The notes under the pieces: model-generated
Database searches by the model: none
The model's input: only the letters and a program-made list of their open reading frames with translations
Told to the model about the DNA's origin: nothing
In this document: positions 25,855 to 43,158 of the stretch, piece by piece
Position numbering within the stretch: position 1 is the stretch's first letter
Layout: each line of letters opens with the position of its first letter
NCBI GenBank assembly: GCA_000155695.1
Contig: DS990592.1
Span: 4,988,538 to 5,052,537, forward strand
Length of the DNA stretch: 64,000 nucleotides
From: Verrucomicrobiia bacterium DG1235
Lineage (GTDB): Bacteria; Verrucomicrobiota; Verrucomicrobiia; Opitutales; Opitutaceae
Direction of reading: 5' to 3'
Translations under genes and position numbers: made by a program

Positions 25855-25966
25855 CGGGGATTGGGGGCTCTGTTCTTGCATTGCCAGTGCGAGTTTCGTA
25901 TTGAATAGCCCACGTCTCCTAGGGCGATGTTTCCCACCTAAGTCTCCGGATCCCAAAAGTGCCTCT

Positions 25967-28900
25967 ATGTCCACTTTCTCGACTAGTCGAACTGGCTTTT
26001 CGTTATCTAGCGTTGCATTGACTTTGTACGTTTTATTGAGCTTCGCACGTATTGCGGGCGCTCAGGATTGGAAGGTGGATTTGAATGCTTTGCGGTTCGA
26101 GTCGGTCGATATGAACGAGTCTGAGCCGAGCGGGGAAGTGAAGCGTATTGTCCAGGATTCCTTGGGCTTTGTCTGGTACGCTACAAGGGAGGGGGTTCAC
26201 AGGTTCGATGGATATGCGGTTAGGACTTATTCTAAGGTGCCCGGAGCGTCCAATTCCATCATTAGCAGCACGGTTTTAGAGCTCTTTCTGGATGCTGAGG
26301 ACAATTTGTGGGTGGGGACAGATCGGGGAGTTAGCCGTTACGATCTCGGGCTCGATTCTTTCAGGAATTACACGCTTGGGGGTAACGAAGCCTTGAACGT
26401 GAATGCGATCGTCCAAACTCAAAACGGTGGAATATATGCGTCAACAGAAGTTGGATACGTTTGCCGCTATGACGTGGAAATGGATCAATTCGTGCGAATC
26501 CAGTCTTCGCCGCTCGGGATCATTAAATCTATGGCGGCGGGATCTAGCGGTGAGTTGTGGATTGGTTCGCTCAATAGCCTGTTTAGACTTAATCTAGATT
26601 CAGGTGATGTCGTTCGCTATTCAGATGGCCTGTCTCCTGAGGATGGCGCTGTGAATAACTTTGTCGAAGCTTTGTTGTACGTCTCTTCGGATGAAGTTTG
26701 GCTCGGAACGGCGGCGTACGGGACGATTCTTCTGAATCCGGAGAGCGGTAGTATAAATCCTTTAGCGAGAGTGTATTCGAATGAGTCATACGTGCATGAG
26801 ATGCAGATTGATTCGTTGGGGAATATATGGATATGCCATAGTGATGGATTAACTGTTTATTCTTCCGATGCTGAAGCGTTGGCTCGGTATAATCGTAACG
26901 ACGCCGTTAGCCCGTTGCCCAGTAGTGGGATTCATTCCATGCTTTTAGATGCGCAGGGTAATGTTTGGGCGGGCTCACGCTATCACGGAATTTACATGGC
27001 CGCTCGGAATAAGCTTTTTCATCGGATTCCTGATTATGTAATTGGAAATGAAAAAAGCCGCCAGACGGTTGTTTCCTCTTTGTTGTTCGATAGTCAGGGG
27101 AATCTGTGGGTGGGTCGGAATGCGACAGGCATTGACGTTTTTCCTGCTGGCGGAGGAGCGAAGATTGAGTTTCGAAACGATCCAAGTAATTCGCGCTCTC
27201 TTGGGCCTAGTACAGTTTTTTCGATGATAGAGGATAGTCGTGGTGATATATGGATCGGTACGTTTATGGGAGGTTTGCAAAAGTATAATCCTGAGACGGA
27301 GGATTTTGAAACCTACAAGAAAATAGCTGGGGATGATACTTCAATTGCCGGCAACGATGTTCGCACGGTACTCGAAGCGAGTGACGGTAATTTTTGGGTG
27401 AATACTCATGGCATGGGCATTTGCTATTTCGATGTGGAAAAAGGCGAATTTACCAACTATGTTAGAGACTATGCTCCCGACCCGGAAAGTTTGATAGACA
27501 ACTGGGGAAGCACCTTGGATTTGATAGAAGGGAATCGGCTTTTAGTTGGAACGGGAATGGGGTTTTTCATTCTTGATGTTGAAACGATGCGCGGGGAGGG
27601 CGTTCGTGCTGATCCTGAAAATTCGAAGGGGCTATCGAATGGAACGATTAACGATGTTTATCAAGATCGAGAAGGGCGAATTTGGATTGGCACGAATGAT
27701 GGCTTAAATCTTTACAGTCATGATGAATCGTCTTTTGAGCGTTTTTCCGTGGAGGAGGGGTTAAGTAACCGTGTAGTTGTTTCGATCATACAGGATGATG
27801 ATGGATTTCTTTGGTTGGGAACCTATGATGGGTTGAGTCGTTTTGACCCAGAGACAGGTAAGGTTAGCACTTATACGGCGGGTGACGGATTGGGGCATGA
27901 CGAGTTTTATCCCCGCGCTGTAACGAAGGACTTTGAGGGGCGCTTGTATTTCGGTCACCGAAATGGCGTTGTCTTTTTTAGGCCTTCGGAAATTGAAGAT
28001 AACACTGTTGTGCCGGAGGTTTACATATCCGGATTGAAAGCTCTTAACAGATCTCTTCGGATTGATCCTGAGAATGGAGGGCTGGGGACGCTTGATGAAA
28101 ATATACTGGAGCTGGGTTCGGTTCGGTTAGGGCATGACCAAAAGGTGTTTTCCATCGAGTTTGTTGCTCTAAATTATATCCAGCCCGATAAAAATCAATA
28201 TGCGTATAAATTGGATGGGTTCGATGAGCACTGGAGTTATGTTGGGTCACGCAGAGAGGCAACTTATACAAATTTGAATCCGGGAAGATACGTCTTCATG
28301 GTTAAGGCTTCCAATAATGATGGTTATTGGAACGAGGTTCCTCGGATCTTGGAGATTATTATACAAAGGCCTTATTGGCAGACGCCTTGGTTTCGTGGGT
28401 TGGCTGTCGTCTTGGCGATTTCGCTTCCTTTCTTATACGCCATTAGGCGTTTGAAACGAAATCGGGAGCAGAAGCTACTTCTGGAATCGACGGTAAACAA
28501 GCGAACGAGCGATTTGCAGAGAGCTCATGAGGAACTTGGGCGAGCTTACAAGTTATTGGAGAGTAAGCAGTCGCAGATTCAGGTTCAGAATGCGGAGCTT
28601 CTGGGTCATCGTCAGAATTTGGAAAAGATGGTGGCCACTCGAACTCGCGAGTTAGAGGTTTCCAAGGAAAAGGCCGAGCGCTCGGATCGGTTGAAGTCAG
28701 CGTTTCTTGCGAACATGTCTCACGAAATTCGTACCCCGATGAATGCGATCGTCGGTTTGTTGGAAATCGTTCACAAAGAAGATTTGCCTGAGGATGAGCG
28801 GGAGACTTATGCGGAGGTTATTCGCCAGAGTAGTAGAACGTTGATGACGCTTATCGATGATATTCTGGATTTGTCTCGCATCGAGTCGGGGGAGGCCACG

Positions 28901-29869
28901 CTTCAGCTGCAACCGTGTCGAGTTGACGAAGTGTGTGAAGAACTGTATTCGCTTTTTAGGTACGTGACTAAAAAGGAGTCGGATGGCGATGTGGTTCTGA
29001 AGCTCGTTCGGGATGGAGTGGAGGGCTCTTTGTTGAATGAGGCGCGAGACGAGTTTTGTTTGGAGTTCGATCCTGTAAGGCTGAAGCAGATTTTGACTAA
29101 TCTTCTTTCAAACGCGATCAAGTTTACGGAGAAGGGCGAGATTTTGTTTGGTTATGATTCTGAAAATTTGGGATCAGAGGTGCGCATTCGCTTTTTTGTT
29201 TCCGATTCGGGAGTCGGGATTCCTCAGGATCATTTGGAAAAGATATTTGATCGATTTCACAAGGTTGAGGATCCGGATGGCCGTGTTCATCGGGGCACCG
29301 GGCTGGGGCTTACGATATCGAAGAGATTGTCTGAGATGATGTCAGGCGTGATCGAAGTGAATTCTGAGGTGGGGAAGGGGACCTGCTTTAGTGCGACTTT
29401 CACACGTCCAATCGTTGAATGTGAGCAGGGGCCTGATCAGTCAGAGACGCCTGAAGCGGAGAGTGTCCCCGTTTCGCTTGAGAGTGCTCCGGATTTGCGC
29501 GGCGTAAAGGTGCTGTTGGTTGAGGACGAGGAGCCGAACTACCTTTTTATTGAGAAGGCTTTACGGTCGACTGGGGCAGAGATTACTTGGGCTCAAGATG
29601 GAGTTGCCGCTATCGAGGCTTTTGACGAGGGTGGCTTCGGCATGGTGTTGCTTGATGTTTTGATTCCCAAGAAGGATGGGTACGAGGTTCTAAGCCATAT
29701 CCGCTCGGTGGATACCGAAGTGCCTGTTATCGTTCAGTCCGCATATACGATGGAAGGTGATGAGGATAAGGCTCGGAGTTTGGGCGCCTCGTCTTTCCTG
29801 CCAAAACCGTTTACGAAAGGGCAGTTGCTGAGCTTGTTGGAAGCGACAAGGCGCTCAGGGGAAGTTTGA
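25967..29869 (+). CDS. hybrid two-component sensor with periplasmic propeller
   Basis: Large sensor of 1300 residues from the ATG at 25967, chosen because it opens into a signal/membrane segment; a TTG at 25901 is the alternative. After the signal come many Reg_prop-type blades with repeated N-x-W-x-G-T or I-W-I-G-T motifs (to about 700), a Y_Y_Y domain, one membrane helix (about 820-840), a coiled coil, the H-box NMSHEIRTPMNAI, an N-box NLLSNAIKF, the G boxes and a receiver with V-L-L-D-V-L. Such proteins usually sense oligosaccharides in the periplasm. Unlike the Bacteroidetes relatives it has no AraC-type DNA-binding domain, so a separate response regulator is needed; none is adjacent. Confidence 0.93.
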   Translation: MSTFSTSRTGFSLSSVALTLYVLLSFARIAGAQDWKVDLNALRFESVDMNESEPSGEVKRIVQDSLGFVWYATREGVHRFDGYAVRTYSKVPGASNSIISSTVLELFLDAEDNLWVGTDRGVSRYDLGLDSFRNYTLGGNEALNVNAIVQTQNGGIYASTEVGYVCRYDVEMDQFVRIQSSPLGIIKSMAAGSSGELWIGSLNSLFRLNLDSGDVVRYSDGLSPEDGAVNNFVEALLYVSSDEVWLGTAAYGTILLNPESGSINPLARVYSNESYVHEMQIDSLGNIWICHSDGLTVYSSDAEALARYNRNDAVSPLPSSGIHSMLLDAQGNVWAGSRYHGIYMAARNKLFHRIPDYVIGNEKSRQTVVSSLLFDSQGNLWVGRNATGIDVFPAGGGAKIEFRNDPSNSRSLGPSTVFSMIEDSRGDIWIGTFMGGLQKYNPETEDFETYKKIAGDDTSIAGNDVRTVLEASDGNFWVNTHGMGICYFDVEKGEFTNYVRDYAPDPESLIDNWGSTLDLIEGNRLLVGTGMGFFILDVETMRGEGVRADPENSKGLSNGTINDVYQDREGRIWIGTNDGLNLYSHDESSFERFSVEEGLSNRVVVSIIQDDDGFLWLGTYDGLSRFDPETGKVSTYTAGDGLGHDEFYPRAVTKDFEGRLYFGHRNGVVFFRPSEIEDNTVVPEVYISGLKALNRSLRIDPENGGLGTLDENILELGSVRLGHDQKVFSIEFVALNYIQPDKNQYAYKLDGFDEHWSYVGSRREATYTNLNPGRYVFMVKASNNDGYWNEVPRILEIIIQRPYWQTPWFRGLAVVLAISLPFLYAIRRLKRNREQKLLLESTVNKRTSDLQRAHEELGRAYKLLESKQSQIQVQNAELLGHRQNLEKMVATRTRELEVSKEKAERSDRLKSAFLANMSHEIRTPMNAIVGLLEIVHKEDLPEDERETYAEVIRQSSRTLMTLIDDILDLSRIESGEATLQLQPCRVDEVCEELYSLFRYVTKKESDGDVVLKLVRDGVEGSLLNEARDEFCLEFDPVRLKQILTNLLSNAIKFTEKGEILFGYDSENLGSEVRIRFFVSDSGVGIPQDHLEKIFDRFHKVEDPDGRVHRGTGLGLTISKRLSEMMSGVIEVNSEVGKGTCFSATFTRPIVECEQGPDQSETPEAESVPVSLESAPDLRGVKVLLVEDEEPNYLFIEKALRSTGAEITWAQDGVAAIEAFDEGGFGMVLLDVLIPKKDGYEVLSHIRSVDTEVPVIVQSAYTMEGDEDKARSLGASSFLPKPFTKGQLLSLLEATRRSGEV

Positions 29870-31900: not shown

Positions 31901-32059
31901 GTTGCATGCTTCCAGGTGTTGACTATAAGGAAATCGAACATGTGCTTGCAGCTTAACTTATAACCCGAATGGAGCATTTCAAAGTCGCCCACATTTTATT
32001 TGCTTTTCAATGCACTAATCTTTCACTCCGAAATCCTCTAAAGACTAATCCTCTGCTCA
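31901..32059. other. upstream region of the respiratory operon
   Basis: AT-richer gap of 159 bases between the ABC ATPase and the respiratory cluster. It must hold the main promoter of the act genes, but no single -35/-10 pair stands out, so none is called. Confidence 0.4.
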
Positions 32060-32245
32060 GTGAGTTCCGAAAATTCCCGCAAATCATTCTTACTTGCGAT
32101 CGCGGCCGTTGTGGCTGGCGTAATCGCATTGCCTAAACTGCTTGCTCGCGCGAAGGCGAAAGGCAGTTCCACTCAGTCAGCTTCTCTCATAAAGCTGCGC
32201 CAGGATCCTCGTTCCGTTCATCGAGAGGATTCGCGATTCGCCTAA
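32060..32245 (+). CDS. small single-membrane-span protein ahead of actA
   Basis: Possible gene of 61 residues with a GTG start. A basic N-terminus (SSENSRKS) precedes one helix (FLLAIAAVVAGVIALPKLLA), then a positively charged tail ending VHREDSRFA. No family is recognised. It lies 39 bases before actA on the same strand, and its compact membrane-anchored plan suits a small accessory of the complex, but the GTG start and short length leave doubt. Confidence 0.5.
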   Translation: MSSENSRKSFLLAIAAVVAGVIALPKLLARAKAKGSSTQSASLIKLRQDPRSVHREDSRFA

Positions 32246-32284
32246 CCGTTTTCCCTGACAGGAACGGACAACCTTTTAACCGCT

Positions 32285-32941
32285 ATGTCTAAAGTGTTTC
32301 CAAAGTGGTCGAACGCGTTGCCACTGAAGATCGTTGTTTTTCTCTTCGTCTTCGTGACTACGCTCCTAGCCGGCATCACCTACTATGTGACGCCAAAGTA
32401 TGTGCGAGTCGGATACGAGCCGACTCAGCCGGTCCCTTACGATCACAGTTTTCACGTGGGTGAGCTCGGGCTCGACTGCCGTTACTGTCACGATAAGGTC
32501 GACCAGTCGGATGTCGCTAACATCCCGGCGGCTGACACCTGTATGAAGTGTCATAGCATGATCAAGACTGACAGCGCGCTGTTAGCGCCGATCCGCGAGA
32601 GCTTTGCTACTGGGCAGCCAGTCGCTTGGAAGCGCGTGCATCAGGTACCGGACTATGTTTATTTTAGCCATCAGGCTCACGTGACCCGTGGGGTTTCCTG
32701 CGTGGAATGCCATGGCAAGGTGGACGAGATGGAAGTTGTTTCTCACGCTGAGCCGATGAGCATGAGCTGGTGTCTCGACTGCCACCGCCATCCGGAAGAA
32801 GCGCTGCGTCCGATCGACGAAGTCTTCAACCTTGATTGGGAACATCCCGGCGGCCCGCTCGGCCAGACGAAGGCCGGCCTCGAGTTCATCAAAGAACGTA
32901 ACATCACTCCTCCACAAAGCTGCACAGGCTGCCACCGATGA
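32285..32941 (+). CDS. actA: Alternative Complex III pentahaem cytochrome ActA
   Basis: Membrane-anchored multihaem cytochrome c, 218 residues, that passes electrons within Alternative Complex III. One N-terminal helix (IVVFLFVFVTTLLAGITYYV) anchors it. Five haem motifs are visible in order: CRYCH, CMKCH, CVECH, CLDCH and CTGCH, as expected for ActA. Extra histidines (SFHVGE, FSHQAH) can serve as distal ligands. First core gene of the operon; its last codons overlap actB by four bases. Confidence 0.93.
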   Translation: MSKVFPKWSNALPLKIVVFLFVFVTTLLAGITYYVTPKYVRVGYEPTQPVPYDHSFHVGELGLDCRYCHDKVDQSDVANIPAADTCMKCHSMIKTDSALLAPIRESFATGQPVAWKRVHQVPDYVYFSHQAHVTRGVSCVECHGKVDEMEVVSHAEPMSMSWCLDCHRHPEEALRPIDEVFNLDWEHPGGPLGQTKAGLEFIKERNITPPQSCTGCHR

Positions 32942-35900
32942 AACGCGCACCTTACAACCATCCTGAAACAGCGGAACTGTCTGGCCCGCGCTACTGGCGC
33001 AGCCTAGACGAACTCTCGCAAACGCCCGAGTTTCTCGCGGAAGTTGAGCGCGAGTTCGGTCCGGAAGCCTCGGAAATGAACGACGTTGATCGTCGTCACT
33101 TCTTCAAGATTATGGCGGCTTCTTTCGCGATTGGCGGACTCGGATTTTCCGGCTGTCGCCGTCCCGATGCCCATATCCTCCCGCACTCCAAGATGCCGGA
33201 GCATCAGATTCCTGGTCAGGCGCTTTATTACGCGACTGGTTTTCCGCTGCGTGGCGAAACGCTTCCACTCCTCATCGAGACCCACACTGGCCGTCCAACC
33301 AAGGTTGAAGGCAACGCTGAGCACTCCGGCTACAAAGGCGGAACGACGCGTAAGGCGCAGGCCGCTATCCTCGATCTCTACGATCCAGATCGCGCGACCG
33401 CTCACACCAAGGGTACCTCTAAGATCAGCAACGCAGACGTCTACGATCTGCTCGCCAATCTCAATAAGAGCTATTCGGCCTCCAAGGGAGCCGGTGTCGC
33501 AGTTCTAGCCGAAAGTTCCTCTTCGCCAACGCGCCTTCGCCTCAAGAAAGCTTTCCTCAAGGCTTTTCCGCAAGCGACATGGGCAGAGTACGACGCCATC
33601 GACGCCAGCAATGCCGCCATTGGCGCTGCGAAAGTTACTGGCAATGACAAGCTTCAGCCAAAGTACGACCTTACCAAGGCATCCCGCATCCTTGCGGTAG
33701 ACGCCGACTTCCTCGACGAGGAGCAAGGTTCGGTTCAGTTCTCCAAGCAGTTCGCGGAAGGGCGTCGGGTACGCTCGAGCCACGACAAGATGAATCGCCT
33801 CTATTCAGTCGAGAGCATTTTCTCGATCACTGGCGGCATGGCGGACCATCGCAAGCGTCTCGCTACGAGCCAGATGGTGGCGTTTCTTGCGGCCATCGCT
33901 CTCGAGCTTGATCTCGGAGTCGAGGGAAATGCTCTCAAGTCTGTTCTCGAACCGCTCGCGGCGAAGCTCGACGCAGAGACGAAGGAGTGGGCAGCGAAGT
34001 GCGCCGATGATCTAGCCCATCACAAGGGCGAAAGTCTCGTTTTTGTTGGGCAGCATCTCTCTCCCGAAGCCCATGCTCTCGGCCTCTTGGTAAACGAGAA
34101 GCTCGGCAATCTGAAGAAGACGGTCTCTCTCGTATCGGTTGACAAGGGTACTACCGCTTCCATTCGGGACCTCGCGGCTGCCATCGAAAACGAAGCGGTT
34201 CAGTCTCTCGTCATCCTTGGCGGGAACCCTGTCTACAACGCTCCGGTCGATCTCGATTTTTCATCCTTGCTCATGAAGGTAGGGGAGGTCGTACGCCTTG
34301 GATACTACGCTGACGAGACGTCCGAAGAATCTTCCTACCACCTCCTGCAGTCTCACTTCCTCGAAGCGTGGGGCGATGGACGTACTTACGGTGGCGACGT
34401 GGTTGCCCAGCAGCCAATGATTCTTCCGCTCTTCGACGGCTTGTCCGAAATCGAAGTCCTTGCTCGCCTGCTTGGCGAAACGGCGGCGGATGGCTACAGC
34501 CAAGTTTACTCCACCTTCCAGTCTGCGAACGGAAATTCCGGAAAGCGCGGCTTTGATGCATTCCTTAACGAAGGTTTCGCAGCAGGTGGCTACAAAGTGT
34601 CGAATACCAACGTGTCCGGCCTCGAGCTCGCCGACCTCCTCAAAGGCTACGCGGCTCCTGCGGCTCCGACCGGTAAGGAAAACCTCGAAGTTCGTTTTCT
34701 TAACGACGCCTCTGTCGACGATGGACGTTACGCGAATAACGGCTGGTTGCAGGAATGTCCGGACCCAATGACCAAGCTGACTTGGGACAACGCGATCATC
34801 GTGAGTCCGCGTCTCGCGAAGGAACTCGACATCGTCGCTCCCGACTCCGCCAAGCAAATCGCCCGCAAGAATCCGAACAAGGTTCGTGACGGTCGCCAAT
34901 TCGCTCAGGTCGCGAAAATTTCAGTGGGTGGCCGCGAGATTGAAGGCGCGATCCATATTCAGCCCGGCCTCGATAACTACACGGTTATCCTCCCGCTTGG
35001 ATACGGTCGCGAAAAAACTGGCCGCGTTGGCACAGGTTCGGGATTCAGCGCCTACGCGCTGCGTAGCGAGACCGCCTTTGTCTCCGGCGCTTCGCTTGAG
35101 CTTTCGGGCGCTGAGTACCAGCTCGCGGAAACGCAGTCGCACTGGTCTATGGAAGGTCGCGCGATTGTTCGCGAGGCGAACCTCGACGATTACGAGGCGG
35201 ATAATTCTTTCGTTTCCAAGATGGGTATGGAGTCTCATTCGCCGGCTATTTACGCCGGAGCGGAGGACATGACCACCCAGGAGAAGATCACCGAAACGCC
35301 GCGTGGCGGTTCGATGTACGAACACCCCGATCTGACTGGTATCCACCAGTGGGGTATGAGCATCGACCTCAATGTTTGCACGGGCTGTAACTCCTGTGTA
35401 ATCGCCTGTCAGAGCGAAAACAACATCCCGATTGTTGGACGCGACCAAGTTCGTCGCGGACGCGAGATGCACTGGATTCGCCTCGATCGTTACTTTTCGT
35501 CCGGTTCCGAGGATCTCGCGGAAATCCCCGAAGATCCGCAGGTATCCCTCCAGCCAATCGCTTGTATGCAGTGCGAAACGGCTCCGTGTGAAACCGTTTG
35601 TCCGGTCAACGCGACAGTGCACGACGAGGAAGGCCTCAATGCCATGGCGTACAACCGTTGTATCGGTACGCGCTACTGCGCGAACAACTGCCCGTACAAA
35701 GTTCGCCGCTTCAACTTCTTCGATTACCAGCAACGCCAGTTGGACAAGCTCTACCTCGGACCGCTAGCTCCGAAAGGCATGCCAGAGCTCGTGCAGATGG
35801 CGCAGAATCCAGACGTATCCGTGCGTATGCGCGGCGTAATGGAGAAGTGTACCTTCTGTGTTCAGCGCATCAATCAGGCGAAAATTGCCCAGCAGGCGAA

Positions 35901-36240
35901 GGCCGGCGGGGGAGACGACGTTCGAGTGCGCGACGGTGCGATCCAAGTGGCTTGCGAACAGGCTTGCCCGACCGATGCTATTGTCTTTGGCGACCTGCTG
36001 GACAAAGAAAGCCGCGTCGCTCAGCTTCGCGAAAACGAACGCTCGTATTCGCTTCTTGGGTACCTCAACACGCGTCCGAGAACGACTTTCATGGCCCGCA
36101 TCCGTAATCCTAATCCAAAGATGCCGGACTACCAGGATCTACCGCTATCCACGGTAGAGTACAATGCCGCTTCACCACATGGCTCGCATGACGAAGACCA
36201 CTCCGATTCCCATTCTGACACTGAAGGAGGACACCACTAA
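32938..36240 (+). CDS. actB: Alternative Complex III iron-sulfur subunit ActB
   Basis: Fused molybdopterin-like and ferredoxin-like protein of 1100 residues. A twin-arginine-type motif (DRRHFFK, about 51-57) is followed by a hydrophobic stretch with a lipobox-like GFSGC. The middle part (about 90-700) resembles molybdopterin enzymes but keeps no obvious cofactor ligand, as usual in ActB. The C-terminal part carries four cysteine clusters, starting at C814 ([11 protein letters not shown]), C876 (CMQCETAPC), C908 ([11 protein letters not shown]) and C971 (CTFC), with a later CEQAC near 1006. It belongs to the quinol-oxidising complex on the periplasmic side. Confidence 0.93.
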
Positions 36241-37661
36241 TGGCCAGCGCTAGCCACCATTCTCAAGATATGAGACCCGCGATTCTCGATGAAGTGGATC
36301 CGGTCGATATTCCGCGCCAACCCTGCGTAGCGAACGACCGCAGTTTCAATTGGATCACCGAAAAGGTCTGCGGAATCATCGAAGAGAAGACGCCTACCTG
36401 GTGGTGGGTTTGCTTCATCATCGCTTGCTGTACCGCTAGCTTCACAGTTATCGGTCTTGCTTACCTGACGGTTACGGGTGTTGGTGTTTGGGGTCTCGCC
36501 AATCCAGTTAATTGGGGTTGGGCGATCGTAAACTTCGTATTCTGGATCGGTATTGGCCATGCGGGTACACTGATCTCCGCTATCCTCTGTCTTCTAAGAC
36601 AAAAGTGGCGCACTTCGATCAACCGGGCAGCGGAAGCGATGACGATCTTCGCGGTTGTCTGTGCGGGCTTGTTCCCGGTATTTCACGTCGGTCGCGTGTG
36701 GTTCGCAATTTATCCCGGGTATCTTTTCCCATTCCCGAACGCGAACGCGATCTGGCCGAACTTCCGTTCTGCTCTCCTTTGGGACGTGTTTGCGGTTTCG
36801 ACTTACGGCACCGTTTCGGTGCTCTTCTGGTATATCGGATTGATTCCCGACTTCGCTACGGTCCGCGATCGCGCGACGACAAAAATTCGCAAAATCGCTT
36901 ACGGCATCGTGGCCATGGGCTGGCGCGGATCGAATCGCCATTGGAGCAACTACGAGATGCTCTATTTGATCTTGGCCGGTCTTTCCACGCCGCTCGTTCT
37001 TTCGGTTCATACGATCGTATCCTTCGACTTCGCGATCTCTCTCGTGCCTGGCTGGCACACGACGATCTTCCCGCCGTACTTCGTGGCAGGGGCTATCTTC
37101 TCCGGCTTCGGCATGGTGATCACCTTGATGCTGCCGCTACGCGCCGTGTACGGTCTCCAAGATCTCATTACGCAGTACCACATCGACTGTATGACCAAGA
37201 TCATCTTGGCCACCGGTACGATGGTTGGCTATGCCTATGGTATGGAGTTCTTCATCGCTGCCTATGGCGCGAATGACTTCGAAATCTTCGCTTTCGTGAA
37301 CCGTGCCTTCGGCAACTACGCCTGGGCATACTGGATCATGATTTCCTGTAACGTTATCTCGCCGCAGTTCTTCTGGTTCAAAAGTATCCGCGAAAACACG
37401 ACGCTGGTTTGGGTTATCTCCCTTTTCGTCAATGTCGGCATGTGGTTCGAGCGTTTCGTTATCACCGTTACCTCCCTGTCCCGTGACTTCCTTCCTTCGA
37501 GCTGGGGTTACTACTCTCCGACAGTGGTGGACATCTTCACTTACCTAGGAACTTTCGGCCTCTTCTCGGTGCTGTTCCTGCTCTTCCTTCGCTTCGTGCC
37601 GCTTATGGCCATGGCGGAAATCAAGGCAGTCACACCGCAGGCTGATCCTCACCACCACTAA
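36240..37661 (+). CDS. actC: Alternative Complex III quinol-binding membrane subunit ActC
   Basis: NrfD-like integral membrane protein, 473 residues, with about ten membrane helices. It provides a quinol site. Conserved-looking stretches include [15 protein letters not shown] and [13 protein letters not shown], with [15 protein letters not shown] following. Starts one base from the actB stop. The C-terminus is histidine-rich (DPHHH). Confidence 0.93.
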
Positions 37662-37686
37662 TCTCTAAACGTCGACTCCTCTTATA

Positions 37687-38217
37687 ATGGCGGACAAATT
37701 TGGAATACTCGCTAAGTTCGACACCCCGGCTGACATCATGCATGCAGCGGAAAAGGTGAGGGACGCTGGCTTCAAGCGTTGGGACGTGATCACTCCGTTT
37801 CCGATACACGGCATGGATGGCGCCATGGGGCTGAAGCGCTCCTGGGTGCCCCGTTTCACAATCGTGGGCGGCACGACCGGTTTCATTGCCGGCATGAGCA
37901 TGATCTTCTTCACCAACGCGTTTGACTACAAGATCCTGATCGGCGGCAAGCCGCTCTTCAGCCCGTTCTTTGCCTTTCCGGTATCGTACGAGCTTACCAT
38001 CCTCTTCTCGGCTTTTGCGTCCATCGCTGGCATGTTTATCTTGAACAAGCTTCCGATGCACTACCATCCGGCGCTGAAGATCGACAGGGTTGCCGAAGCT
38101 TCGGACGACAAGTTCTTCCTCTACATAGAGTCTGAGGACCCACAATACGACGACACCAAGACCCGCTCCTTTGTCGAAGGGCTTCATCCGGTCGAAGTAT
38201 CCGACATGGAGGCATAA
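37687..38217 (+). CDS. actD: Alternative Complex III subunit ActD (DUF3341)
   Basis: Small membrane protein of 176 residues in the DUF3341 family. Two membrane helices (about 58-77 and 97-120) follow a soluble N-terminal region opening with FGILAKFDTPADIMHAAEKVRDAG, typical of ActD, and a DVITPFPIHGMD motif. Lies 25 bases after actC and four before actE. Confidence 0.93.
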   Translation: MADKFGILAKFDTPADIMHAAEKVRDAGFKRWDVITPFPIHGMDGAMGLKRSWVPRFTIVGGTTGFIAGMSMIFFTNAFDYKILIGGKPLFSPFFAFPVSYELTILFSAFASIAGMFILNKLPMHYHPALKIDRVAEASDDKFFLYIESEDPQYDDTKTRSFVEGLHPVEVSDMEA

Positions 38218-38221
38218 CGAG

Positions 38222-38832
38222 ATGCGCTACGTATACCTGATATTGATTTTCGTCGTTATAGCGGCGGTGAGCGTGCTCGGTTTCCGAGGCACGAAGTCTA
38301 CTAAGAATCCACTCGAGATCTTCGACGACATGGACCACATGCCGAAGTATCAACCGCAGGATGAGAGTGCCTTTTTCGCGGATGGCCGTACGGATCGACT
38401 CCCCGTTCCAGGCACCGTCGCTCGCGGCACTTTCGAGCCTGACGCTTTCAAGGCTTCCGGGAAAAACGGCGATGCTTACGGTTCCGGTTTTCCAATCGCT
38501 GTGGACAACGCTGCCATGAAGCGTGGTGAAGAGCGCTACAACATCTACTGCACGCCGTGCCACGGCGCGGCTGGTGATGGCCAAGGTAGACTTGCTGCCT
38601 ACGGCATGACTGCGATCGCAAACCTGACGGCCGCTCCCTACACGGAGATGCCAGAGGGCGAGATCTACCACTACATCGTAAACGGTAGCCGCAGTGGACG
38701 TATGTATGGCTACAAGGAAAAGCTTTCGGTCGAGGACCGCTGGAAGGTCGTTCTCTACGTCCGCGCGTTGCAGCGCGCCGCGAACGGTTCCGTTAATGAC
38801 TTAACTCCTGCTGACAAGGAGGGACTAGGACT

Positions 38833-38836
<4 letters not shown>
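38222..38836 (+). CDS. actE: Alternative Complex III monohaem cytochrome ActE
   Basis: Monohaem cytochrome c, 204 residues from the ATG at 38222, where an N-terminal helix begins (YVYLILIFVVIAAVSVLGF); an earlier in-frame start would lie in actD. The haem motif is CTPCH with GAAGDGQG after it, and a candidate axial methionine lies in the region around GRMYGY. In some bacteria ActE is lipidated; no lipobox is present here. Overlaps actF by four bases. Confidence 0.9.
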
Positions 38837-40059
<1,223 letters not shown>

Positions 40060-40067
40060 TTTTTATC

Positions 40068-40352
40068 ATGAGTACTCAAGCGCATACACCATCGCGTAGC
40101 TCCTTCCCTGTCGTTGTCGCAATAGTCGGCATTTTCCTTCTTTTCTGGTTCCTCACGAGCAAGGTTTACGTGGACCAGAATGAAGCTGCACCTGTATCTA
40201 ACTTCACGGTCGTCGACCAGACGCTTGCGGAACATGAAGGAGCTGCAGCCACTCTTCTCTCAACTTCCAAGGTCACCGATGCTGCCAACGGCAAGGTTCG
40301 CCTTGATCTCGAGCGAGCTAAGGATCTCGTGATTGCGGAGAATTCCAAGTAA
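40068..40352 (+). CDS. small membrane protein between actF and the CcoN-like gene
   Basis: Unrecognised protein of 94 residues started at the ATG at 40068. One N-terminal helix (FPVVVAIVGIFLLFWFLTS) and a soluble tail of about 65 residues with a helix rich in leucine and alanine. It lies between ActF and the oxidase-like genes in a tight operon, so it may be an accessory that joins the two parts. No haem motif or copper ligands. Confidence 0.75.
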   Translation: MSTQAHTPSRSSFPVVVAIVGIFLLFWFLTSKVYVDQNEAAPVSNFTVVDQTLAEHEGAAATLLSTSKVTDAANGKVRLDLERAKDLVIAENSK

Positions 40353-40397
40353 GTGGGCAATTAGTCGCCTGACGCATTCGAAATATCGAACTAAGCT

Positions 40398-41879
40398 ATG
40401 AATTTGATCTGCAACCTATTTTCATCGTTCTTTCCAAATTTGGAAAGCGATGGAACGCATCGCGAAAGGGAACAGAATATCGACGCGTCCGTCCGCTTCG
40501 CGGTGCTTGGGCTTATCAAGGGCTCCGTCGTGTGGCTGCTTGTCGTGTCGCTGCTGGGCTTGATCGTTTCGCTTAAGCTGCATTCTCCGTCCTACCTTTC
40601 TGAATACGGCTGGTTGACTTACGGTAAAGCGTATCCTGCATTTTGGAACGCTCTCGTCTATGGTTGGCTTTTCAATGCTGGGCTGGCTTGTGTGGCTTGG
40701 ATCGTCGCTCGTCTCGGGGGGCGTCCGATCGGTAACGGCGGTTTGCTGATCATCGCCAGCGGAGCTTGGAATATCGCGGTCATCATCGGACTATTTGGAA
40801 TTTTCAAGGGCGACCAGAACCCTTACCGTATGCTCGAGTTCCCGGTGTACGTGGCTCCGTTTCTCTTCGCTGCTTTTATTGGAATCGGCCTTTGGATTTT
40901 GTTGGCGTTCAAGGCCCGCGCTTATCGTTCGTCCTTCGCCTCCCAATGGTACGCCCTCGCAGGCGTGTTCAGTTTCCTTTGGATCTTCACGGTCGCCCAG
41001 GTAATGATTTTCTGCCTGCCTGCCCAAGGTGTTTTCCAAAGCGTGGTAGCTGCTTGGTTCGGAGGGAATCTCCTCGGACTAGTGGTCGCGCCTTTCGCCT
41101 TCGCGGTAATCTATTACATCATTCCCAAAGTTTTGGGACAGCACATCATCGGTTACGGCCAATCTGGTATCGCGTTTTGGAGCTGGATCCTGTTTGCCAG
41201 CTGCAGCGGTCTCGCCTCACTCGTTAACGGACCATTTCCCGCATGGGTGGCTTCAGTAGGAGTCGTGGCGAGTTTTGGGCTTTTCCTGCCGCTTTCGGTT
41301 TTTACGATGCAGTTCGTATCCAGCTTTCTGGCGAGCTTCTCAAGGGTTTGGGATACGATATCCGCTCGATTCGCGTTTTACGCAGTGGTCGCTTTTATCG
41401 TTTCGACCGTTCTGCTGATTCTCGGATCTCTGCGCGGGGTGCAGGAAGTAACGCAATTCAGCCAGTTCAACGACGGCGTGCGTTACCTCTTTCTAGTCGG
41501 ATTTGCGGGCATGGCTTTCACTGGCATGATCTACTACATGCTTCCGCGCCTCCTCAATAAGGAGCTCCCCAATTCGTCCCTAGCTGATTTGCAGTTTTGG
41601 GTTCAGGGCTTGGGGATTTTCACGATAACAGTGAGCCTCGTGGCCGGTGGCTACGCCCACGGAGCGTTGTTGAACGGAAGCGACGCCGACACGATCGCTA
41701 TTCTATTCAACACGAAAGGATATCTCTTTCTCACATCGCTCGGTTCCGTGATATTCGCTTTTGGCAATTTCGCCTACGCGGTATCATTTGTTTGGATACT
41801 ACTCTCTCCTCGCACTGAGAAGGAAAAATCGGCTGACTTGATCAAGTCTGCTCCTGAACTTGAGTATACGCATTCATGA
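40398..41879 (+). CDS. CcoN-like subunit lacking all haem and copper ligands
   Basis: Membrane protein of 493 residues with about 12 helices, clearly of the cbb3-oxidase subunit I (CcoN) fold. Aligned with canonical motifs, every metal-binding histidine is gone. The low-spin haem ligand in PxHTNA is F82 in PAFWNA. The copper ligand in WYGHN is G223 in WFGGN. The paired histidines are L272-A273 in SGLAS. The two histidines in GHVH are V361 and Y363 in DGVRYL. Surrounding helix motifs (VIYYIIPKVLG, MIYYMLPRLLN) are well kept. The protein therefore cannot reduce oxygen as known enzymes do, yet it is followed immediately by cytochrome genes like ccoO and ccoP. Confidence 0.88.
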   Translation: MNLICNLFSSFFPNLESDGTHREREQNIDASVRFAVLGLIKGSVVWLLVVSLLGLIVSLKLHSPSYLSEYGWLTYGKAYPAFWNALVYGWLFNAGLACVAWIVARLGGRPIGNGGLLIIASGAWNIAVIIGLFGIFKGDQNPYRMLEFPVYVAPFLFAAFIGIGLWILLAFKARAYRSSFASQWYALAGVFSFLWIFTVAQVMIFCLPAQGVFQSVVAAWFGGNLLGLVVAPFAFAVIYYIIPKVLGQHIIGYGQSGIAFWSWILFASCSGLASLVNGPFPAWVASVGVVASFGLFLPLSVFTMQFVSSFLASFSRVWDTISARFAFYAVVAFIVSTVLLILGSLRGVQEVTQFSQFNDGVRYLFLVGFAGMAFTGMIYYMLPRLLNKELPNSSLADLQFWVQGLGIFTITVSLVAGGYAHGALLNGSDADTIAILFNTKGYLFLTSLGSVIFAFGNFAYAVSFVWILLSPRTEKEKSADLIKSAPELEYTHS

Positions 41880-42502
41880 ACAGAGGACCTTTCATCTTCA
41901 TAGGCGTTCTGATTATCGTCTCGCTTTCTTGGGCGCTCACCTTGGTCAAACCGATTCAGGAAGCGGGCAATCTGCAAGCGATCGGAATTGGCAATGATCG
42001 TATACCGGCTCGTCTTACGGGTCTCGCTGAACAGGGGCGTGACGTTTATCAGGAGCAAGGCTGTGTCAATTGCCACACGCAGCAAACGCTTGCCCTTGTC
42101 GGTTCTGACATAGAGCGAGGTTGGGGAGAGCGTCAGTCCATGCCGCTCGATTACATCGACCAGAGTCCAGTTTTCACAGGCACGAATCGCGTAGGTCCCG
42201 ATCTTGCAAACGTAGGCGTTCGTCGCGGCGAGGCGAATTGGCACTATCTCCATTTCTACAATCCTCAGATCACTTCAGCTGGCAGCAATATGCCGCCGTT
42301 TGATTTTCTATTCGAGACTCGCGAGATCGTGGGCGAACCCTCTGATCGCGCGCTTGAACTTCCTGAAGGCTTCCGTCCGGCGGAAGGGTTTGAAGTCGTG
42401 CCGACTCGCGACGCGGACGCTTTGGTCGCCTACATGCTAGGTTTGAGCCAAGCCTATGAAATTGAAGAGGCTCCGACGCCTGAAAAGCTCGCCTTCAAGT
42501 GA
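41876..42502 (+). CDS. CcoO-like monohaem cytochrome c
   Basis: Membrane-anchored cytochrome of 208 residues, like subunit II of cbb3 oxidases. One N-terminal helix (FIFIGVLIIVSLSWALTLV), a single CVNCH haem site in QGCVNCHTQQ, then R-V-G-P-D-L-A-N-V-G and WHYLHFYNPQ motifs, with a likely axial methionine in NMPPF. These features match CcoO. Start overlaps the CcoN-like stop by ATGA, so translation is coupled. Confidence 0.85.
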   Translation: MNRGPFIFIGVLIIVSLSWALTLVKPIQEAGNLQAIGIGNDRIPARLTGLAEQGRDVYQEQGCVNCHTQQTLALVGSDIERGWGERQSMPLDYIDQSPVFTGTNRVGPDLANVGVRRGEANWHYLHFYNPQITSAGSNMPPFDFLFETREIVGEPSDRALELPEGFRPAEGFEVVPTRDADALVAYMLGLSQAYEIEEAPTPEKLAFK

Positions 42503-43158
42503 TGCAAGACGATCAAGAACAACCACATCTACCGGGAGTCGACGCGAGTAAGGCGACCGACGAAAGCGTCCTTCGTGTTCACGCTCAGCTACGCCGTCAG
42601 CGCGTTGAAGGTTCACCGGTCGCTTTTTTCACAGCGGTAGCTTTTATCATAGTTTTCGTTTTCGCTTGGTTCTACGGCCGTCGTTATTTTGCGGAAATGG
42701 ATTCAGCGGGCGTGCTTGCCGAGCGCGAGCAGATAGCTGCTTTGGAGGCTTGGAAAGCCCGACCGAAGGAGCCTGCGGGTCCAGTGGTTATCGATGGGGC
42801 TCAGTTGTACGCTCAACAGTGCGTCGCGTGCCACCAAGCTTCAGGTCAAGGTCTAGCCGGAGCTTTTCCTCCGCTTGCGGACTCGGAGTGGGTAACCGGC
42901 GAACCTGAGCTTCCAATCAAGATCCTGCTATCGGGTCTTGGAGGTCCTATCGAAGTGAAGGGTGTTTCATACAACGGAGCGATGCCCGCCTTCGGCGCTG
43001 TTTGGGATGACGCGCATATCGCGGCAATCGTGAGTTATATACGCGGTTCTTGGGACAACGGCGCGAGTGAAGTCACTGCGGAGCAAGTCGCTGAAGTTCG
43101 AGCGGCAATTGGCACTCGCGGAGCTTGGACAGCTGACGAGCTTGCCGAGCATTTTTGA
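42499..43158 (+). CDS. CcoP-like cytochrome c
   Basis: Cytochrome of 219 residues with one membrane helix (AFFTAVAFIIVFVFAWFYG, about 42-60) and one haem site CVACH in QLYAQQCVACHQASGQG. A motif GAMPAFG supplies the methionine ligand. Canonical CcoP has two haems, so this single-haem form is short and resembles only its C-terminal half. Overlaps the previous gene by four bases and ends the operon, followed by a strong bidirectional terminator. Confidence 0.82.
   Translation: MMQDDQEQPHLPGVDASKATDESVLRVHAQLRRQRVEGSPVAFFTAVAFIIVFVFAWFYGRRYFAEMDSAGVLAEREQIAALEAWKARPKEPAGPVVIDGAQLYAQQCVACHQASGQGLAGAFPPLADSEWVTGEPELPIKILLSGLGGPIEVKGVSYNGAMPAFGAVWDDAHIAAIVSYIRGSWDNGASEVTAEQVAEVRAAIGTRGAWTADELAEHF

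Follow-up and report, generated by a model that had tools for sequence, protein, structure and literature searches.

Operons that join Alternative Complex III (ACIII) to a cbb3 oxidase have been reported for Methylacidiphilum (PMC6688271), and superoperons or supercomplexes of ACIII with caa3 or aa3 oxidases for Rhodothermus, Flavobacterium and Acidobacteria (PMC5928083, PMC8552683, PMC8407424), as given in the extracts of these papers that were available. In the same extracts, ACIII is described as docking with caa3/aa3 oxidases and passing electrons on without soluble carriers (PMC5928083). Here we describe a related locus in the marine Verrucomicrobiia bacterium DG1235, contained in a window of 64,000 nucleotides (contig DS990592.1 of assembly GCA_000155695.1, positions 4,988,538 to 5,052,537, forward strand). 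A complete ACIII cluster, actA to actF (ActF being assigned by place and conservation), is followed by three genes that encode a CcoN-like protein and two cytochromes resembling CcoO and CcoP, termed N, O and P below. The N protein carries none of the metal-binding histidines of its oxidase relatives. This ligand loss, together with retention of the operon, is well supported by the sequences.

The locus shares with Methylacidiphilum-type operons, as far as the extracts describe them, the joining of act and cbb3 genes, and 46 of the 143 relatives collected here likewise have an intact ccoN and a ccoS-like gene. It differs in that ccoN is ligand-less in the other 97, in 96 of which no ccoS was found. 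As in the described ACIII-caa3/aa3 systems (again from extracts), where ACIII feeds an A-type oxidase, an aa3-type CoxA follows in 24 of these 97 operons, a likeness in gene order; here the pseudo-cbb3 genes N, O and P lie between act and cox. The full-text literature available, which largely lacks subscription papers, does contain ACIII-oxidase operons, and we found in it no description of a ligand-less CcoN. A 2026 genome paper, seen as an extract, labels three genes right after act as 'caa3 (2)' (PMC13274419), which may be such a module.

The CcoN-like subunit and its former ligand sites

The N protein matches the Pfam family COX1 (E 1.2e-31) and the ccoN model TIGR00780 (E 3.6e-23, although its 82 bits fall far short of the cut-off of 583). 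Homology to COX1/CcoN spans residues 42-452 of its 493, and the only PDB relatives at E up to 1 were five cytochrome oxidase chains (E 6e-14 to 3.4e-9). In an alignment with P. stutzeri CcoN (3mk7), residues H60, H207, H257, H258, H345 and H347, which we take to be the ligands of haem b, haem b3 and CuB, correspond to F82, G223, A273, S274, V361 and Y363 of N. Tyr251, presumably the active-site tyrosine, corresponds to A267. An earlier note on this DNA, written from the sequence alone, had claimed that all six ligand histidines were lost, and the alignment agrees in placing no histidine at any ligand site. The residues it named (F82, G223, L272-A273, V361 and Y363) were also correct except at the histidine pair, which aligns with A273-S274. 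The ligands have not simply been displaced, because no histidine is invariant among N and its five nearest homologues. The pattern of this clade, FGASVY, is uncharged. Lacking ligands for haem b, haem b3 and CuB, N should not reduce oxygen, and it is probably not to be counted as a terminal oxidase, a scaffold or relay role being the more plausible one.

The genes N, O and P directly follow actABCDEF (32285-40059) and a gene for a 94-residue protein, with overlaps of 4 bases at both the N/O and the O/P junctions. The coupling of N to c-type cytochromes and its link to ACIII, both proposed in the earlier note, are borne out by this arrangement. The genes of the operon in the window are as follows.

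32285..32941, + strand: actA, multihaem cytochrome c of ACIII (cytochrome c7 families, a QrcA-like match and synteny)
32938..36240, + strand: actB, molybdopterin-like/4Fe-4S subunit (family matches and synteny)
36240..37661, + strand: actC, NrfD-type membrane subunit (NrfD, E 1.2e-20, and synteny)
37687..38217, + strand: actD (ActD, PF11821, E 2.1e-62)
38171..38836, + strand: actE, monohaem cytochrome c (Cytochrome_CBB3, E 2.9e-11), the true start perhaps lying slightly inside the open reading frame
38833..40059, + strand: actF, second membrane subunit, without a Pfam match and named by place and conservation
40068..40352, + strand: 94-residue protein with one likely membrane helix, not followed by ccoS; similar small proteins occur in the gaps that were read
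40398..41879, + strand: N, ligand-less CcoN-like protein of 493 residues, putative pseudo-oxidase subunit (homology and ligand alignment)
41876..42502, + strand: O, CcoO-like monohaem cytochrome c (CXXCH at C63-H67, with the MP motif that holds the likely axial Met)
42499..43158, + strand: P, CcoP-like cytochrome with one haem c (CXXCH at C108-H112, Met162)

The listed open reading frame of the 94-residue protein has 104 residues, as it begins at an earlier GTG. A reading frame on the opposite strand follows P. The genome is Pelagicoccus-like, the nearest named relatives of N lying on contigs of Pelagicoccus (Verrucomicrobiota) at 81-86% identity.

Compared with cbb3 oxidases, the locus keeps the order N-O-P, an N homologous over most of its length, a CcoO-like O with one haem c and a CcoP-like P. 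It differs in the absent six ligands and tyrosine of N, the lack of ccoS in the gap, the adjacent ACIII and the single haem of P. Classic CcoP has two haem c groups; the intact sister operons described below also have one CXXCH in P.

Ligand loss and ccoS among relatives

Relatives were collected with a profile of six N proteins that was searched against two overlapping sets of genomes, 132 from the order and 387 from the phylum, both entirely within Verrucomicrobiota. This gave 155 N loci, namely 149 regions among the matches listed, five loci from a search of genome contigs, and the window. The set excludes fragments (G057, G009), most fused matches of 650-880 residues and a number of weaker matches from other classes. 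Twelve of the 155 had no ActF on their stretch and stand outside the counts (11 intact and one ligand-less, L195, on a short contig), so that the numbers of relatives given here (143, 97 and 46) rest on the examined loci among the matches listed.

Among the 143 N loci behind actF, all six histidines were present in 46 and some or all were lost in 97. The ligand-less state is therefore neither a chance event nor the oddity of one genome, two explanations that we rejected on this count. Of the 97, 29 keep no histidine at the six sites, 48 keep one, 8 keep two, 11 keep three and one keeps four. Some residual binding is conceivable where histidines are left; the window clade has none. The active-site tyrosine was kept in 46/46 intact and 1/97 ligand-less proteins. 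Conservation across the protein was scored from 157 columns with a conservation of 95% or more among 21 intact N. In 78 ligand-less N, the ligand and tyrosine columns fall to 1-28% (Tyr251 0.01, H347 0.04, H257 0.09, H345 0.13, H60 0.19). R57, W203 and H337, at 0.10 each, are also among the least retained, and for some others of that group, such as S325, M327 and L61, no role in cofactor binding is known. W220, G76, G89, P149, P279 and P281 (window numbers) were kept in 78/78.

The residues that replaced the ligands vary by clade (QQRHQQ, AHSRRW, FE.[KD]VQ, HSQKFI, QQHHHN and others), and this bears on whether N might bind a cofactor through new ligands, or have a new catalytic or ion-conducting role in which polar or charged residues at the former sites are functional. 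Lysine, arginine, aspartate or glutamate occupies at least one of the six sites in 66/97 ligand-less N, and certain patterns recur unchanged inside a clade (HSQKF, QQRHQQ, FE.[KD]V). We nevertheless regard such a role as very unlikely, as no replacement is common to all, the patterns change from clade to clade, the window clade has neither a charge at these sites nor an invariant histidine, and ccoS is gone.

The fate of ccoS was followed in the gap between actF and N. Similar small proteins are encoded there in both intact and ligand-less operons, among the gaps read, and intact operons have a second small gene that is ccoS-like. Its naming rests on Pfam and TIGR matches and on gene place. 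Of three copies compared with PF03597 (FixS/CcoS), one was above the cut-off (E 2.9e-6, 27.3 bits), one just under it (20.1) and one weak (13.1), and TIGR00847 (ccoS) matched three of four copies below its cut-off. A profile hidden Markov model (HMM) was built from six copies. The gene stands before ccoN in all 46 intact operons, 45 by the HMM profile and one (L186) by reading the gap. One ligand-less operon (L110) has a diverged copy; in the actF-N gaps of the other 96, the window included, none was found, the search covering these gaps and not the genomes elsewhere. Over 13 independent pairs on the ACIII tree, ccoS and ligand state agreed in 12 on average and disagreed in 0.5 (median p 0.0005). 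Each ligand loss seems to have been accompanied by loss of the neighbouring ccoS. The job of CcoS is the insertion of haem b and Cu. Mutants without CcoS were reported, in the extract available, to contain fully assembled, inactive cbb3 (PMC5742617). The present operons resemble those mutants in having no CcoS and differ in that the state is natural and fixed, with the ligands gone as well.

Since intact act-ccoNOP operons occur in sister lineages (46/143), the ligand-less N is best seen as derived from an ACIII-cbb3 oxidase module. These intact operons, which are presumably active, had no place in the earlier note. Partial losses were also seen (L064 YHQHQQ, L065 THHHQQ, L066 YHHYLQ, L188 YHRHHH, L195 YHRHQH), and L064-L066, near the intact relatives L096 and L106, are possible intermediates of loss. 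In the group of G024, G042, G119 and G096 the loss appears to be recent.

How often the state changed was estimated on trees of three gene sets. The concatenated ActA-F tree (FastTree) required at least 11 switches with 89 rows and at least 13 with 135 rows, the larger tree carrying long-branch warnings; a losses-only model with a midpoint root gave 20 losses on the ActA-F tree. The O+P tree (87 rows) showed 7 switches, 6 of them forced by starred branches. In the N tree (102 rows), 72 ligand-less rows stand together and only 4 switches suffice, which would suit an old ligand-less state that arose once or a few times, with intact operons later regaining an active ccoN and ccoS by exchange. That history appears distinctly unlikely: many of the ligand-less N rows sit on long branches, and a clade in which one family's intact and ligand-less members are mixed is not rejected by the N data (p 0.475), whereas the O+P data do reject a single ligand-less clade (p 0.0001) and the ACIII tree requires its 13 switches. 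Within the N tree itself, the intact N of one family cluster, and the partly ligand-less L064-L066 stand beside L096 and L106. Recurrent ligand loss is the most likely history.

Retention, proposed electron transfer and other oxidases

The operon is conserved rather than decaying, as the earlier note had proposed. No stop codon was seen in any N match listed from the 132- and 387-genome searches, ligand-less N are 459-528 residues long, and O starts no more than 60 bases past N in 96/97 ligand-less operons. In Pelagicoccus pairs, N showed a non-synonymous divergence (dN) of 0.08-0.12 and a ratio of non-synonymous to synonymous change (dN/dS) of 0.049-0.084, computable in 5/6 pairs and like that of ActB; other ligand-less pairs ranged from 0.047 to 0.242, with some synonymous (dS) values saturated. 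Histidines aligned at the ligand sites, or a restriction to one genome with signs of relaxed selection, had been set beforehand as grounds for giving up the claim; no such histidines align, homologues occur in many genomes, and purifying selection is present. The idea that N is decaying and about to be lost is contradicted by the present data and scarcely credible. The faster evolution of N following ligand loss, detailed below, would fit it; the open frames, the lengths, dN/dS well below 1 in all ligand-less pairs computed, and an N kept in 97 genomes in an otherwise tight operon speak against it. We likewise rejected the reading of N as a pseudogene on its open frames and dN/dS.

The cytochromes have been kept as well, with CXXCH of both O and P present in 97/97 ligand-less operons. 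Between actF and N, sixteen of the 97 (L214 being unclear) encode an additional haem c protein, compared with 0/46 intact operons. The clear cases, in which this protein carries a monohaem cytochrome c motif, are L115, L116, L121, L129, L138, L140, L144, L146, L149, L205-L208, L212 and L213, all ligand-less.

An aa3-type CoxA lies within 4 kb downstream of NOP in 24/97 ligand-less operons and 1/46 intact ones, counts in which linked oxidases may be missed where less than 3.5 kb of downstream DNA was available (10/97 ligand-less and 6/46 intact loci). Several of the act-NOP-cox operons have no CoxB gene ahead of CoxA; a COX2 search placed it further downstream in those looked at. At least two COX1-family matches were found in 50/50 ligand-less genomes searched. 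The act-linked N is the only COX1 of one intact genome (G010), which has no COX2 match either, and the absence of another oxidase match there argues that the intact forms are working oxidases.

The parallel loss of ccoS and the CoxA behind NOP fit a wire from ACIII to another oxidase, and the aa3 genes and the extra haem c protein suggest a working electron path in the families that have them. We lean, on balance and with modest confidence, towards a pseudo-cbb3 module in which a cofactor-free N anchors O and P on ACIII and electrons pass to another oxidase. The ancestor of N would be the catalytic subunit of a cbb3 oxidase linked to ACIII, and N would still form a CcoN-like membrane bundle, holding O and P next to ACIII, which may be why it is retained. 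Electrons from menaquinol would pass through ActA/ActE to the haems of P and O and on to a separate oxidase, whose genes would belong to the operon in some relatives and lie at another place in the genome of DG1235. The relay itself is what we infer from these features; the sequences themselves show ligand loss, switches on two gene sets, a gap without ccoS, purifying selection and conserved c-haem motifs.

Several observations weigh against this proposal. The 24 aa3-linked operons all come from four families of the class that lie outside the window's order; they are not 24 independent cases, and their clustering outside that order lowers our confidence. The aa3 oxidase of the DG1235 genome is not linked to act, and other COX1 proteins also occur in 20/21 intact act-linked genomes, so that the presence of another oxidase does not discriminate. 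An AlphaFold model of N from a six-row alignment reached a pLDDT of only 36 and was not used. N evolved faster after ligand loss than in intact sisters in 9/9 trios (e.g., 0.46 vs 0.26 from the same outgroup), whereas ACIII in these trios differs by 0.05 or less (e.g., 0.26 vs 0.24). Together with the one ligand-less pair at dN/dS 0.24, this points to a partly relaxed constraint on N. The MP motif of O was recognised in 58/97 ligand-less and 43/45 intact operons, rough counts since the regular expression misses a true Met in some (L093, L174, L197) and several O starts are ill defined. Of 39 ligand-less O misses, 23 have Cys at the Met place and at least one keeps the Met. Met of P was kept in 84/97 ligand-less and 42/42 intact operons. 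Cys in place of an axial Met should lower the haem potential, so that O is perhaps off the high-potential path where this has occurred. Replacement of the axial Met of O in many ligand-less lineages argues against one uniform wire. The anchor and wire idea of the earlier note stands, then, as regards ligand loss, coupling to cytochromes, linkage to ACIII and a selected operon, and falters as a uniform wire, even though O of the window keeps its Met.

The 23 ligand-less operons with Cys for the likely axial Met of O are L119, L120, L122, L124, L138, L140, L143, L144, L146, L149, L198-L201 and L205-L213.

These same observations raise the alternative that N, O and P play a structural or regulatory part, stabilising ACIII or buffering its electrons as a dead-end sink, with no relay to an oxidase. 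The repeated replacement of the O Met, the faster N once its ligands were lost, and the lack of a linked oxidase in the DG1235 genome would all suit it, as would the electron-sink role proposed for ActE in the available part of PMC8552683. It accounts less well for c-haem motifs kept throughout O and P, for Met162 of P being so widely retained, and for the aa3 genes and extra haem c proteins of ligand-less operons. We consider this alternative rather unlikely.

Returning to the pseudo-cbb3 module that relays electrons, its broadest form would be an undescribed architecture, in which a cofactor-free pseudo-oxidase and two c-type cytochromes serve as the wire and docking platform of ACIII for an A-type oxidase, arising through at least a dozen independent conversions from ACIII-cbb3 in one phylum with loss of ligands, tyrosine and ccoS. 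We put this forward tentatively, at a shade below even likelihood. Subunit I of haem-copper oxidases is usually regarded as inseparable from its metal centres, and here it is retained without their ligands, apparently repeatedly. The matched loss of ccoS offers a natural replicated experiment on non-catalytic roles of CcoN, such as cytochrome anchoring and complex III docking, and the module offers a direct test of electron delivery by ACIII. For annotation, ligand-less genes match COX1/ccoN models, and genome-based predictions of aerobic potential can miscount them as terminal oxidases.

Other oxidases and surroundings of the operon

Ligand motifs are present in three further COX1 proteins of the DG1235 genome, one aa3-like, one fused cbb3-like, and one part of a lone cbb3-like NOP. 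Lone cbb3-like NOP genes with all ligands and without act genes were seen at L067 and L068, the latter (G000:C6:1077749-1079092) in this genome. Among the relatives, actF of L076 and actB of L114 are each split into two open reading frames, which may be real or due to an assembly error. Upstream of the operon in the window, a large protein at 25901-29869 resembles a hybrid sensor kinase with an N-terminal propeller and is followed by ABC-type permease and ATPase genes, as judged by eye. The GC skew is strongly positive over 1-32000 (0.11 to 0.48 per 2 kb) and near zero across the act-NOP operon (32000-42000).

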